Source: Limnochordia bacterium (GTDB lineage Bacteria; Bacillota; Limnochordia; Darwinibacteriales; DTU012). Taken from it: a stretch of DNA of 37,357 bases. The position numbers and the translations under genes are program-made. The notes under the pieces were generated by a model, which was given only the letters and a program-made list of their open reading frames with translations, was not told where the DNA came from and searched no databases. Below, piece after piece: positions 8,029-26,945 of this stretch. Position 1 is the stretch's first letter, and each line of letters starts with the position of its first letter. The stretch lies in assembly GCA_007116145.1 (NCBI GenBank), contig SKJB01000026.1:1-37357 (forward strand), written 5' to 3'.

Positions 8029-9618
8029 CTATTGCTCCTCTAAAGTTCCTTTCTTCCTGTTCATGCGTCCCTTTACCATATTCCAAACAAAGAGGGGTTC
8101 TTCCATTCGGAGTATAAAGCTTAAGCTGAGATAAACGACAGCCCCAGCACTAATCGAGCCAAAGGTCTGAATGAGCCTCCCTGTTCCGCGCGTTAAATCG
8201 AGATAGGGGATTAAGGCCTGACTAGCATAATAGGCCACAATACCCATGGCTACAGATGCAACAGCTGCCCGACTAAATGAACCGAGAATCCGTCTTCCGT
8301 CGATTCCACCAAGCTTTCGTCTGAGCATGAATAAGAAAACAACCAGATTAATAATGGATGTAAGAGAGAATGCAAGAGCAAGACCGCCCGCCTCAAGGGT
8401 TGTCCACTGCAAAAAAGCAATACTCAATATAAAGTTTAGAATCACTGTTAATAAACCAATTTTAACAGGGGTAATCGTATCCTGAAGCGAGTAAAATACT
8501 CGTGTCAAGATTTGTAATCCCGACTGGGCAAACAAACCAGCGGAGTAGAACAATAGTGCGTACGCTGTCGCATTCGTGTCGCTTGCCGAGAACTCCCCAG
8601 CCTCAAACAGAAGACGGACAATCGGAACTCGTAGCACAGCCATCCCCACAGCGGATGGCAAGGTAATATAGAAGACTACCCGTAATCCAAAGGAAAACGT
8701 ACGCCGAAACTCATCCATTTCACCACGGGCCACCAACCGCGCTAAGGTTGGAAATATCGCTGTGGATATGCCCATAGCAAAGACACCAAGCGGAAAGTGG
8801 ACTAAGCGGTTCGCCAAACGTAGTGCGACAATCGATCCCATTTCTAGCAACGATGCAAGATTTTGTCCAATAATTAAATTGATCTGAGCAATGGATAAAC
8901 CAATGAGTGCTGGAATCATTAGTTTTGCCATTCTGCGAATCCCAGGATGCTTTAAGTCAATAACCGGTTTATAATACTGTGCCTTTTTTAAAACCGTAGG
9001 AAATTGTAGCGCAAAACTACCAAACGATCCCACAATTGTGCCCATCGCCATTCCCATTATGCCAATGATGGGGCCTAGCAAGTACGCACCTAGAATCTGA
9101 CTAGCATTATATACAATAGGACCTAGCGCAGGCATGGTAAACTTTTGATAGGAATTCAGGATACCCATCTCTAATCCCGATAAAGCGGTAAAGAATACGG
9201 CTGGAAAAGTTATACGCATTAGAAGAATTAGAAGCTGACGTTGCTCACCGACGAAGCCAATCCCCACTAAGGGAGCGAGCACAGGGGTAAATATTACACC
9301 AAAAACCATAAAAGTGACGAGTAACATACCAGTCAAATTGATAAACGTACTCGCCACATACCATGCTTCCTCTTCTTTATCTTGCGCTAAATATTGCGTG
9401 AATACTGGAATAAAGGCAGAGCTTAGTGCACCACCAACTAGCAGTTGATACATCAAATCTGGGAGGGCGAACGCAGCAAAAAATACATCAGTAATTCCAG
9501 TTCGACCAAAAACTTCTGCCACGGCCCGTTCTCGTACAAACCCTAAAACCCGGCTAACGAAAATGGCAAACATCATAATGCCTGCAGCTCGGGCCATAAT
9601 TCTATTGGTGTTAGACAT
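8029..9618 (-). CDS. murJ: Lipid II flippase MurJ (MviN family)
   Basis: This 529-aa polytopic membrane protein has the MurJ N-terminal signature (ARAAGIMMFAIFVSRVLGFVRE, then DVFFAAFALPDL and SSAFIPVF) and about 14 hydrophobic segments. MurJ proteins flip the peptidoglycan precursor lipid II across the membrane. The ATG follows a GGGAG ribosome binding site. It lies between spoIIP and lepA; in B. subtilis that position does not hold a murJ homologue, so its placement here is lineage-specific. A sigma-H-type promoter upstream suggests expression at the transition to stationary phase or sporulation. Alternative membership of the wider MOP superfamily (polysaccharide export) is less likely given the MviN motifs. 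Confidence 0.92.
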   Translation of the reverse strand: MSNTNRIMARAAGIMMFAIFVSRVLGFVRERAVAEVFGRTGITDVFFAAFALPDLMYQLLVGGALSSAFIPVFTQYLAQDKEEEAWYVASTFINLTGMLLVTFMVFGVIFTPVLAPLVGIGFVGEQRQLLILLMRITFPAVFFTALSGLEMGILNSYQKFTMPALGPIVYNASQILGAYLLGPIIGIMGMAMGTIVGSFGSFALQFPTVLKKAQYYKPVIDLKHPGIRRMAKLMIPALIGLSIAQINLIIGQNLASLLEMGSIVALRLANRLVHFPLGVFAMGISTAIFPTLARLVARGEMDEFRRTFSFGLRVVFYITLPSAVGMAVLRVPIVRLLFEAGEFSASDTNATAYALLFYSAGLFAQSGLQILTRVFYSLQDTITPVKIGLLTVILNFILSIAFLQWTTLEAGGLALAFSLTSIINLVVFLFMLRRKLGGIDGRRILGSFSRAAVASVAMGIVAYYASQALIPYLDLTRGTGRLIQTFGSISAGAVVYLSLSFILRMEEPLFVWNMVKGRMNRKKGTLEEQ

Positions 9619-9703: not shown

Positions 9704-10814
9704 ATTGATTACCCATTATCCGCTGTATGACAGCTGCGAGTAATTCAGCGGCTAGTAAACCTTCCTCTAGTGTATTATCTACCGATCCAATCTCCAAAAT
9801 TACACTATTTGGATGCAGATGCTGATTATAACGAGCATCACGTCGCACTTGAATAGGACGCATTAGACCAGGGTACATCGACTCTGCCGTCCGCTGTAAC
9901 TCGTGTGCAAACTGCAAATTTTTTTGCCAATTCGCATGTTCTTGCGGAATATCCTGGGCTGTTCCTAAAACCAGCAAAACTTTTGCCACTCGTTTGCCGT
10001 TAATAATCACCACCGGTTCTGGCACACCTGCATCACGATGCACATCAAAAACGAATTGGATATTCGGATGCCGACCTAGGATTTCACGCACTGTGCGCTC
10101 AGAATTTAAGTACGATCGGGCAAGACTGGGGAAATCATGAATTCGTGTATCATGCAAGACAGAAATACCATAACGTTGCAGAGCTTTCGCTAAGTGGCGC
10201 CCAACCTCCATGACACCCGTTGTTTTCTCATCCGATGCGGATCGAAAGACATAGTGGGCATCACGGTAATTTTGCTGGGCTGCCAAAGGACCCAGATACA
10301 TTTCTGACGAATGCGTGTGATAGATTAAAACCTGCGGATCAGAAGGCAAAGCGCGGACAGAAGACTCGCTGGGATCAAGCCTATCTTGCATGAGAATTGG
10401 GTCTAACAGCGACGCTGACGGCCGAGTGGGTTCAGGGGCAAAACCTAGTTCTGGCAGGAGGGTAAACGACCTTTCTGGAAACACTTGATAACGCTGCAAG
10501 CTTGTGATGGTTGGCAACGTGTTTTTTAAGAACGATTGAGGATTACCTAAGTCGTAATCGGTTATCATATAGATTAGAGAACGTGCCGTATAATCCCAAC
10601 CGGGATAACCTAGTTCCTCTCCGCTAATGGTGGGCATACCCCAAGACAAAATACTGCGAGCTAACAAATGATCTATGCCAGGAAGCGCCATAAATATCTG
10701 GGAAGCAAAAAAGGCTATGCCAAAGCAAAGGAGAATAATAAAAAACAAAGGTAAGAGCTGTGGATGTTTATCACGTCGTTTGCGTTGCCTTCGTATAATT
10801 TTGACCATATCCAA
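9702..10814 (-). CDS. spoIIP: Stage II sporulation protein P (SpoIIP)
   Basis: SpoIIP is the cell-wall amidase/endopeptidase of the DMP engulfment machine (SpoIID-SpoIIM-SpoIIP) acting on septal peptidoglycan. The 370-aa protein has a basic cytoplasmic start, a membrane anchor at about 20-44, and the amidase domain with LIYHTHSSEMY (163-173), DVHRD (257-261) and the ILEIGSVDNTLEE region near 339-351. The start is probably TTG after an AGAGGTGATG ribosome binding site, with an ATG two codons later as the alternative. In B. subtilis it follows gpr directly; here three plus-strand genes separate them. Confidence 0.95.
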   Translation of the reverse strand: MDMVKIIRRQRKRRDKHPQLLPLFFIILLCFGIAFFASQIFMALPGIDHLLARSILSWGMPTISGEELGYPGWDYTARSLIYMITDYDLGNPQSFLKNTLPTITSLQRYQVFPERSFTLLPELGFAPEPTRPSASLLDPILMQDRLDPSESSVRALPSDPQVLIYHTHSSEMYLGPLAAQQNYRDAHYVFRSASDEKTTGVMEVGRHLAKALQRYGISVLHDTRIHDFPSLARSYLNSERTVREILGRHPNIQFVFDVHRDAGVPEPVVIINGKRVAKVLLVLGTAQDIPQEHANWQKNLQFAHELQRTAESMYPGLMRPIQVRRDARYNQHLHPNSVILEIGSVDNTLEEGLLAAELLAAVIQRIMGNQ

Positions 10815-16235: not shown

Positions 16236-18533
16236 TTAGCGAGCTGTCGCATATCGGCCTAAAATTCCGTTCCAAACATAAAAGGAGACAGCACCGTCTA
16301 TATCTGTTCTAAACACTTCTACTTCTAGTTCGTCTAATCCTGCTAGCACCTGTGGATGGGGATGCCCAAATGAGTTTCTTCCCACAGAGATCACTCCATA
16401 CTTCGCCTCCACAGCTTGAAAAAATTCTGATGACCACGCAGAACGACTACCGTGATGGGGAATCTTGATCCAATCAGCCCGTGGGTTGACCCGTGATACC
16501 AAGTCTAGCTGCCCTTCTTGATCCAAATCACCTGTAAATAACAGGGTTCTATTCTGGTAGTCCAAACGAAAGACAATGCTGTTATTATTGAAATCACACC
16601 GAGTACCCACTAGTATCGTGTCTGGATGCAGAATATCTATACCAATGTTACCTTGAAACTGGATACGATCACCCGCTCGCCCTTTATAATAGGGAATTTC
16701 CTTCTCTAATACTAACTCCAGATACCGTTGATACGAATTGGTCGTATGGCTCATCCCGTTATCGACGATTTTATTCACGTGAAAGTGTTCGAGTACCGCT
16801 AACAGACCATGTAAGTGATCCTCGTGGGGATGGGTGAGAATCACTAAATCAAGGGTGTTCACCCCCCGTTGCTGTAGATAAGGAACAACACGCTGTAACC
16901 CCACATTTCGCCCTCGTTGTTGCCAATACACAGAATCACCACCGCCATCGACTAAAATGTGTTGATTGTAAGGTGTTCTAATATAAATCGCATCTCCTTG
17001 CCCTACATCCAAAACAGTAACTTCCAAGGGACGTCTGATCGTCACAGGCAAGCTCATCAAAGCCACTAGGCATAAGCCAACAAGCATCCACCGCACATAG
17101 CGTTGCCGGCCTGCAAATAGATAGGATACCCGTCCTACGCATCCTAAACCGATATAGAGGAAATACCAAACAAAAGTGACATCCCAAGCAAGAGTAGTAA
17201 CTCTCCACACAGGAGCCCATACAGCCACCATCTGCCCTACTTGCTCTGTAACGACTACGACCCAGTTTAGTACAAATCCAAGTGGTGCTACGATGCTTCC
17301 AGCTAATCCTAGCACCACTCCCCCAAGCAAGATAAGAAAAACCGCTGGTAGCAATAGTAATGTCGCAATGGGTGCGGACGGAGTAACCTGTTGAAAGTAG
17401 TACACCAGCAGAGGAATTAAAGAGAGCTGGGCAATCACTGACACACCAAGGCAAAGCAAGATTTTCCCTAGCAACTTGCCCCAAATTGTCCCAAGCGGGG
17501 CACATTGTTTTTGGAGAATCGGCACCCACAAAAGGATACCACCACTAGCCACAAACGATAACTGGAATCCAATTTGGTAAACAAGCACAGGAGCTGCTAA
17601 TAGCATTATCGTTCCCACTAAGCTCCAGATGTGTAGCCCGTCCTTGTATCTTGTATGCGAACCAAGTAAAGCCACTACCACGGCCAACCAAGCCCGCCAA
17701 GCAGAAGGACGCCCACCACTGATTAATACATATACACCTAAAAAAGTCGCGACAATTACAGACTTCCATGCTTGGTTTATCGGTAGTAACCTACATACCA
17801 ACCAAAAAAGCGATGCTAGTAAACCTATGTGCATACCCGAAATGGCAAACAGGTGGTTAACACCTAACCTCTCCCAGAGCTGATGAGTCGAGGGTTGGAA
17901 GTAACTCCGTTCCCCTAATACTAAAGCTAATACTAATTCCGGATTTTCAATATGTGATTCAATGTTGTTAGCAATATATGAACGCAATTTGTCAATCGTC
18001 TTTACCCACGTGGTCTGCTTATCTAGCTTCGTCAAGAAAACAGGTTCTACAACACCTAATACTCCTTGGCTGGTCAAATACGTTCTATAACAGAATTCTC
18101 CCACATTTCTCGCTCTATCTGCACGTTGGACAGCACCCTCAAAGGCTAGCCAATCCCCGCGGGAAATGGCAATACTAGTGGGAACATGCAACGCTAGTTG
18201 ACTTCTAACTTCTGGTGCCTTAACAATAACCCGCTGGTAGCCACTAAGAGTTCTAGTCTCTATAACCATCCCCGTTAAAGGAATAGTCTCATCGTTATAG
18301 ATCCAATCCTTGTACAGGGTAGCACCTAGGAAGTAACCGACACATAAAATCGTTATGTAGAGCAAAGTTTGACCCTGCCCACTGCCCATCCTCTCGACAA
18401 TTAGCCAACTTGCGAATAAGGCGAAGAAGCAATATGAGCCCAGCATCACACTGGGCCATATTGCTGCAATCCTAATTCCCAAGATTAACAGAAAGAAAAT
18501 GGGAAGAAAAGGTCGCTTTCTAAGGTGTAACAT
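16236..18533 (-). CDS. comEC: Competence DNA channel protein ComEC/Rec2
   Basis: ComEC is the membrane channel that brings single-stranded DNA into the cell during transformation. The protein has an N-terminal membrane part with the DUF4131 region, the Competence domain with the signature HLFAISGMHIGLLASL, about ten membrane spans, and a C-terminal metallo-beta-lactamase domain with HPHEDHLHG (the HxHxDH motif), LLFTGDLD and IPHHGSRSAW, thought to be a nuclease. I place the start at ATG 18531-18533, overlapping comEA by 14 nt; a TTG four codons earlier is possible. Length of about 765 aa is complete, so the locus appears functional. Confidence 0.95.
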   Translation of the reverse strand: MLHLRKRPFLPIFFLLILGIRIAAIWPSVMLGSYCFFALFASWLIVERMGSGQGQTLLYITILCVGYFLGATLYKDWIYNDETIPLTGMVIETRTLSGYQRVIVKAPEVRSQLALHVPTSIAISRGDWLAFEGAVQRADRARNVGEFCYRTYLTSQGVLGVVEPVFLTKLDKQTTWVKTIDKLRSYIANNIESHIENPELVLALVLGERSYFQPSTHQLWERLGVNHLFAISGMHIGLLASLFWLVCRLLPINQAWKSVIVATFLGVYVLISGGRPSAWRAWLAVVVALLGSHTRYKDGLHIWSLVGTIMLLAAPVLVYQIGFQLSFVASGGILLWVPILQKQCAPLGTIWGKLLGKILLCLGVSVIAQLSLIPLLVYYFQQVTPSAPIATLLLLPAVFLILLGGVVLGLAGSIVAPLGFVLNWVVVVTEQVGQMVAVWAPVWRVTTLAWDVTFVWYFLYIGLGCVGRVSYLFAGRQRYVRWMLVGLCLVALMSLPVTIRRPLEVTVLDVGQGDAIYIRTPYNQHILVDGGGDSVYWQQRGRNVGLQRVVPYLQQRGVNTLDLVILTHPHEDHLHGLLAVLEHFHVNKIVDNGMSHTTNSYQRYLELVLEKEIPYYKGRAGDRIQFQGNIGIDILHPDTILVGTRCDFNNNSIVFRLDYQNRTLLFTGDLDQEGQLDLVSRVNPRADWIKIPHHGSRSAWSSEFFQAVEAKYGVISVGRNSFGHPHPQVLAGLDELEVEVFRTDIDGAVSFYVWNGILGRYATAR

Positions 18534-18951
18534 GATATATCTCAAGACAAATTAAGTCTTTGATCTGTTCTAATCGCTTAGGTCCAATTCCAGTAACACG
18601 TAGTAAGTCTTGCATGGTTCCAAATAGTTTTTCTTCCCTTGCAGCAATAATATTATTGGCTAAAACTGGGCCAATGCCTGGTAATGCTTGTAATTGTTCA
18701 TGCGTAGCCCAATTTACGTGAACACGATCACACAAGGCATCTGCACTACACGGTCTGTCATCCTCCAAAACGAGGGCTGCGTCATCGCTACTTACAGCTC
18801 CCGCCTCTGTGCTTGCGCTTGCTTGGGCAACTGCAACCTCAAGCGTTAGATACTCAACAATGCGTTGGCGACCAATAAACCAGCTTGACATCTGACCAAG
18901 CATTATCGTCGCAATAAGCACACCAAATACGAGTCGTTGACGTGGTGTCAT
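18520..18951 (-). CDS. comEA: Competence DNA receptor ComEA (helix-hairpin-helix)
   Basis: ComEA binds double-stranded DNA at the cell surface and passes it to ComEC. The 143-aa protein (ATG 18949-18951, ribosome binding site GGAGG) has one membrane anchor at about residues 8-27, a short linker, and a C-terminal pair of helix-hairpin-helix motifs (VNWATHEQLQALPGIGPVLANNII and LLRVTGIGPKRLEQI). It lacks the SLBB-type domain found in the roughly 200-aa B. subtilis ComEA, so it is a short form. A longer reading from 19017 has no ribosome binding site and would erase the membrane topology. Confidence 0.93.
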   Translation of the reverse strand: MTPRQRLVFGVLIATIMLGQMSSWFIGRQRIVEYLTLEVAVAQASASTEAGAVSSDDAALVLEDDRPCSADALCDRVHVNWATHEQLQALPGIGPVLANNIIAAREEKLFGTMQDLLRVTGIGPKRLEQIKDLICLEIYHVTP

Positions 18952-18997
18952 ACTAAACAACCTCCATCTACTTCTCCTCACAGCATGGACACTAATA

Positions 18998-19026
18998 GTA
19001 TTCGACTCACATCCCAAAAATCCTTC
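18998..19026 (-). promoter_or_regulatory. Sigma-H-type promoter of comEA-comEC
   Basis: The minus strand reads GAAGGATTT (19018-19026), 11 nt, then GTCGAATAC (18998-19006). This fits RNAGGAWWW-N11/12-RNNGAATWW except for the last base. It follows the terminator of the upstream unit and lies about 45 nt before the comEA ATG. Confidence 0.68.
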
Positions 19027-19051
19027 ACTAATCTGTATTTTCTAATATTTT

Positions 19052-19085
19052 TTTAAACAAAAACTTCCGCTCTATTGAACGGAAG
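19052..19085 (-). terminator. Rho-independent terminator upstream of comEA
   Basis: CTTCCG pairs with CGGAAG around a 10-nt loop on the minus strand, followed by TTTTTGTTT. It ends the nadD-to-19219 transcription unit and separates it from comEA. Confidence 0.78.
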
Positions 19086-19105
19086 CATGATGAACGAGAT
19101 CTTCC

Positions 19106-19218: not shown

Positions 19219-19458
19219 TTACTTGTTGTCTAACTCCTCCATGATATCTTGCAGATTTCGTTCATGTTTTGCCTTATTCACGCGACTCATTACAAGGTAA
19301 AACCCAAAACCTCCAAGTAGAACCAACAAAATTAACACTGCGACTGGACTCACTGGTTCGGAGTCAAACTCGAATTCGATGGCATGTATAATCCTACTGT
19401 GACCAAGACCAACCATGAGACTTCCAAGTAAAGCTCCAATCTTACATCGAATGTTCAT
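19219..19458 (-). CDS. Unknown small two-helix membrane protein (79 aa)
   Basis: I do not recognise this gene. The ATG at 19456-19458 has an AAAGGTGG ribosome binding site. The N-terminus (CKIGALLGSLMVGLGHSRIIHA) looks like a signal peptide or first membrane helix, then an acidic stretch (EFEFDSEP), a strong membrane helix (VAVLILLVLLGGFGFYLVM), and a charged cytoplasmic tail (KAKHERNLQDIMEELDNK). This suggests a single-pass protein with an external acidic N-terminus if the first segment is cleaved. It starts 15 nt after yqeM and is followed by a terminator, so it is likely the last gene of that operon. Confidence 0.65.
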   Translation of the reverse strand: MNIRCKIGALLGSLMVGLGHSRIIHAIEFEFDSEPVSPVAVLILLVLLGGFGFYLVMSRVNKAKHERNLQDIMEELDNK

Positions 19459-19473
19459 AACGTACCCCACCTT

Positions 19474-26848: not shown

Positions 26849-26945
26849 TGCTCCACCTCCTCACTTAGACTCGCCAGATTCAGGCACACATAAAGTGTTT
26901 AGCAAAGCCCGTCCTGTGCGGTTTGCAAAAAAGCACAAACCTACA
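26849..26945 (-). ncRNA. Structured 5' leader of rplU (L21 leader type)
   Basis: The leader contains a hairpin GGTTTG/CAAACC with a T-rich loop, a competing TGTGC/GCACA pairing that shares two bases with it, and a distal ACAC/GTGT stem framed by GGC/GCC. An L21 leader with a regulatory role is known in Bacillota (Rfam family L21_leader); assignment to that family is by position and general shape, not by a covariance search. Confidence 0.55.

Follow-up and report, generated by a model that had tools for sequence, protein, structure and literature searches.

Results

The window, i.e., the whole stretch of 37,357 nucleotides that was analysed, carries on its minus strand the predicted DNA-uptake genes comEA (18520..18951; helix-hairpin-helix DNA receptor, assigned from its open reading frame and profile matches) and comEC (16236..18545; DNA-uptake channel, open reading frame and profile match), the latter of which overlaps the end of comEA and has an uncertain exact start. 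The ComEA product matched TIGR01259 (E 1e-14) and TIGR00426 (E 1e-12), both matches lying under the strict cut-offs of these models, and the ComEC product scored 259 bits with the ComEC/Rec2 profile TIGR00361 (cut-off 190). Upstream of these genes, a promoter/terminator scan placed the intrinsic terminator hairpin of the preceding unit at 19063..19086 on the minus strand. The segment 19063-19200 (minus strand), which includes this terminator, folded better than shuffled sequences (z -2.3) and had no fitting family in Rfam; within the 5′ leader of comEA itself, no structure was found (z -0.19 against shuffles) and Rfam gave no credible match. Further upstream lies an 83-residue membrane-like open reading frame (19219-19470, minus strand), the place of which is taken in most relatives by a gene resembling rnfA by its C-terminus. 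We also observed a ribosomal protein L21 leader (Rfam RF00559) at 26857-26934 on the minus strand.

The interval separating the terminator of the preceding unit from comEA contains, on the minus strand, the sequence GAAGGATTT-N11-GTCGAATAC (19026 to 18998), which has the form of a sigma-H-type promoter. It consists of a -35 element GAAGGATTT (19018..19026), a spacer of 11 nt, TTGGGATGTGA (19007..19017), and a -10 element GTCGAATAC (18998..19006), both elements being kept in relatives. Seventeen of the 18 element positions fit the pattern RNAGGAWWW-N11/12-RNNGAATWW, the sole departure being the last base (C for W). This agrees with the first-pass annotation, made from the letters of this DNA, which had described a match in all but the last base, located between the terminator and comEA and about 45 nt from the start codon; we place the site 46 nt upstream of the comEA ATG (18951), beginning 36 nt past the terminator (19086-19063). 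A Shine-Dalgarno sequence GGAGG precedes the gene (18961..18965), and the usual spacing of sigma-H promoters would put the transcription start at 18987..18993.

The genome (2.76 Mb in 164 contigs) was scanned with the sigma-H pattern and, as a control, with the reversed pattern, which is imperfect in that it preserves the base composition but not that of neighbouring bases. Perfect sites numbered 34 against 0 for the control, and 166 sites departed from the N11 pattern at no more than one position, compared with 46. Approximately 0.3% of 100-nt single-strand windows thus contain a site with at most one mismatch, the figure from the control density being 0.08%. In 37 genomes of the order, perfect matches numbered 715, against 49 for the control, so the sigma-H promoter class is genuine in these bacteria.

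Conservation was assessed with a weight matrix, whose training set of 18 intergenic sites came from this genome and included no known com gene. It was applied to positions -150 to -25 of gene starts with a hit threshold of p ≤ 0.05. The first-pass annotation had named absence of the motif from close relatives as a result that would refute its proposal; the motif withstood this test, with a site on the same strand before comEA in 22 of 29 genomes of the order and none on the reverse strand (0/29). Most of these sites lie at -60 to -77. In a further set of comEA genes, drawn chiefly from the other families of the class, the matrix found a site in 15 of 27. The combined matrix p for comEA (2e-21) assumes independence and, the relatives not being independent, is to be taken as strong rather than exact. 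ComEA proteins of these relatives are approximately 40-60% identical, and their leaders are by eye mostly dissimilar outside short blocks. In one family (f3), the promoters have AGGT and GAAA/GAAG variants; mapped SigH promoters of Clostridioides difficile likewise include AGGT and GAAA forms, such as AAAGGTATC and TGTAGAAATA (PMC7438776).

The first-pass annotation had proposed a search for the same motif before comG, comF and spo0A, and the motif was recovered before the latter two, the comG counterpart having only a weaker variant in this genome. The matrix found a site before comFA in 27 of 29 genomes; in this genome comFA, which is followed by comFC, has a perfect site 44 nt upstream of a possible GTG start and 11 nt upstream of a longer ATG frame. 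The gene spo0A, a known sigma-H target, carries GCAGGACTTTTCTAATTGACGACGAATAC at -71. The variant before pilB, which opens the pilus gene series pilB-pilT-pilC, is GCAGGTGAT-N11-GACGAAGTT (p 0.11, not significant alone). Matrix sites occur in 8 of 27 pilB leaders, most relatives outside this genome's family having none, and comparable or better sites are present in four genomes of the same family (L155, L158, L164 and L174; L155 with p 0.11, not significant). A c-di-GMP-II riboswitch was seen in seven of the 12 pilB leaders scanned in relatives (L162, L163, L166, L170, L151, L157 and L159); none was found in the pilB leader of this genome or in those of the four same-family genomes with sigma-H-like pilB sites. 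The dprA leader has no sigma-H-like site by eye. At L282, a yifB/comM-like gene has a sigma-H-like site upstream (10750-10782, minus strand), and this site is followed by tandem -10 copies (AACAAGAGAATTCAATC).

Additional elements are found in the com leaders of relatives. The sequence TGCCC(A)GGG occurs before both comEA and comFA, approximately 13-14 nt past the GAA of the -10 element; at this distance it would fall right where the transcript begins. Most comEA and comFA leaders of family f3 have TGCCCAGGG, or the close forms GCCCGGGG and GCTCAGGG, at a nearly fixed distance after the -10 element, and the forms in the family of this genome are CCCAAGGGA-like. Counted strictly as CC(Y)A(A)GGG, the element is present in 37 of 60 com leaders and in one of 52 controls (p 1e-12 if independent), the controls comprising SigH2 (0/14), spo0A (1/19) and other sites of this genome (0/19, including its own comFA). 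A second sequence, CAGAA[AT] (comEA box CAGAAAA), precedes the -35 element in 24 of 31 comEA leaders and in 5 of 81 others; its distance to the -35 element is mostly 8 nt in f3, compared with 16-19 nt in f1, a difference of about one helical turn. The p values for these elements are descriptive, as the patterns were noticed and counted on the same sequences. Both are weak in this genome, where GTGTCCA (18986..18992, minus strand) is a degenerate remnant of TGCCC(A)GGG and TTAGAAAA (19038..19045, minus strand) a degenerate form of the comEA-specific box. A search of 30 genomes with the composite AGGW..GAA..CCCAGGG gave matches mostly resembling chance in coding sequence; by eye, nearly all of the matches that were correctly spaced and had a G ahead of CCC belonged to comEA or comFA. 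One match that seemed to be a new locus turned out to be a comFA fragment.

Canonical SigH is encoded in the genome (TIGR02859, 382 bits, cut-off 294.8) by a gene adjoining rlmB and a thyX-like gene (names by eye). Two SigH-family paralogues accompany it, SigH2 on C58 (G000:C58:18213-18845; L002, L178) and a third member on C5. SigH2 is 53% identical to canonical SigH, is kept at 70-80% in four families (f1, f2, f4 and f5) and is absent from f3; a sigma-H-type site lies in front of SigH2 itself in each of the 14 genomes encoding it. ComK (PF06338) was detected in none of the 37 genomes, the Bacillus subtilis positive control being detected.

The background frequency of sigma-H-type sites was estimated on 497 kb of the genome for genes whose upstream space measured 80 nt or longer (matrix hit ≥ 13). 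Hits were obtained for 24 of 147 such long-leader genes (16.3%), against 1.5% in shuffled sequences and 2.7% on the reverse strand, the value of 16.3% being slightly generous given that part of the 497 kb also supplied training sites. Long-leader hits in the window include minC, murJ and nadD (names by eye); the sites of murJ, nadD and minC lie at -74 to -85 of gene starts at 9618, 22735 and 33922, respectively, on the minus strand. Elsewhere in the genome, spo0A (55-nt leader), motA- and cheW-like genes and sigma-factor genes gave hits. Sigma-H thus seems to be a second sigma factor in broad use in this genome.

Discussion

We propose, with a probability of roughly 0.8, that the site is a sigma-H-type promoter starting comEA-comEC transcription. 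The sequence supports direct transcription of this type well, since the motif is conserved, comFA and spo0A have such sites, SigH is present and ComK is absent; conservation within both the order and the class and the recurrence at comFA bear out what the first-pass annotation had suggested for comEA-comEC. RNA polymerase with SigH, most likely the canonical factor and possibly a paralogue, would read AGGATTT and GAAT and begin comEA transcription past the terminator, near 18990. Promoters of this type would also drive comFA-comFC and, in this genome, may drive the pilus-motor operon pilBTC, so that one sigma factor would set most of the uptake machinery without ComK. From the DNA we infer that SigH is the factor, that the site is active, where transcription starts and under which conditions it would be switched on.

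One-mismatch sites occur genome-wide about every 33 kb of single strand, and a chance match in front of comEA could be considered on that ground; the fixed position and strand of the site in comEA leaders across the order strongly disfavour it and leave it very improbable. A conventional sigma-A promoter, with the motif as a minor or silent site, would be the usual kind of arrangement, the comEA leader is AT-rich and, by eye, a poor TTGTTT-N17-TACAGA pair is discernible. However, in the promoter scan the minus-strand interval from the terminator to comEA contained no sigma-70-type site and the region had no more of them than shuffles did, and the blocks conserved in relatives are AGGA/AGGT and GAA rather than TTGACA or TATAAT, which makes transcription of comEA from sigma-A improbable. 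Hardly more credible, and if anything slightly less so, is the idea that GTCGAAT is a Spo0A box marking Spo0A control and not a promoter. This part of the site resembles the 0A box (TGTCGAA-like), and some relatives have TGTCGAAT, but its spacing to the conserved AGGA/AGGT is fixed at 11-12 nt and many -10 forms of relatives, e.g., GTGGAAATT, misfit such a box.

A different question is which factor would read the promoter. SigH2 or the C5 paralogue could be the competence sigma factor, as ComX is in streptococci, and the 53% identity of SigH2 to SigH, together with the SigH-type site in its own leader in 14/14 genomes, is what a regulated relay would have. Yet family f3 lacks SigH2 and still has its comEA and comFA promoters; canonical SigH is therefore the simplest reader, and we regard a paralogue in its stead as unlikely, though less so than the alternatives weighed above.

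The site is not special by itself, as approximately 16% of long-leader genes have one; only its conservation is. With sites before so many genes, including growth genes, a sigma-H promoter is no sign of transition-phase control here, and the earlier suggestion that it ties competence to the transition phase is not supported; three SigH-family factors could read such sites. Given such wide use of the sigma-H class, conditional competence probably requires elements or regulators specific to com genes. Tentatively, in this order of spore-formers a dedicated competence regulator might act with sigma-H via TGCCC(A)GGG (comEA and comFA) and CAGAAAA (comEA) and make the competence role of the broad sigma factor conditional.

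This type of control is already known from a few non-sporulating species, namely Listeria, Staphylococcus aureus and Lactobacillus sakei. Listeria monocytogenes has sigma-H-dependent comG, comE and coiA promoters, and RNA-seq with SigH overexpression showed an AGGA/GAAT promoter 22 nt from comEA (PMC4754846). The likeness to the present case, read here from sequence, lies in late com genes under sigma-H with such a promoter before comEA; the difference is that Listeria belongs to the non-sporulating Bacilli and has a regulon of 13 genes (PMC4754846), whereas here a spore-former has a broad sigma-H class, comFA is included and relatives carry extra com-specific elements. In S. aureus a SigH-family factor directly drives the uptake operons comG and comE, but that organism is non-sporulating and its SigH is nearly silent in normal culture (PMC3486894), in contrast to SigH in a spore-former. 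Likewise, SigH induces comEA and comGA in the non-sporulating L. sakei (PMC3364868), whereas the present host carries sporulation genes. The spore-former B. subtilis does not use SigH as a direct driver of uptake genes, control being indirect through ComK (PMC3364868); a com regulon of that type would include ComK, found here in 0/37 genomes. Regarding the breadth of use, in Sporomusa sphaeroides KIAC the mapping of start sites gave 322 with AGGA/GAAT SigH motifs, or 16.1% of the promoter motifs assigned, reaching far beyond sporulation genes, a role that the paper terms expanded (PMC12456013), comparable to our sequence-based 16% of long-leader genes; that paper, however, stresses acetogenesis genes, and no com genes of that organism were seen in the passages searched. 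A partial literature search found no report of direct sigma-H control of uptake genes in a spore-former. What appears to be new here is the occurrence of such putative control in a ComK-less lineage with sporulation genes, its deep conservation and the extra elements confined to com genes.

The published division is that SigH controls late com genes directly in non-sporulating Bacilli and indirectly, via ComK, in B. subtilis (PMC3364868). Conserved sigma-H-type promoters before comEA and comFA in a whole order that lacks ComK and carries spo0A together with sporulation genes would make sporulation and direct sigma-H control of uptake compatible, and the link between sigma-H and uptake would then be old or have arisen more than once. 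The shared com-only elements offer a handle for finding the missing regulator, and competence in these little-studied bacteria would have a concrete, testable switch.
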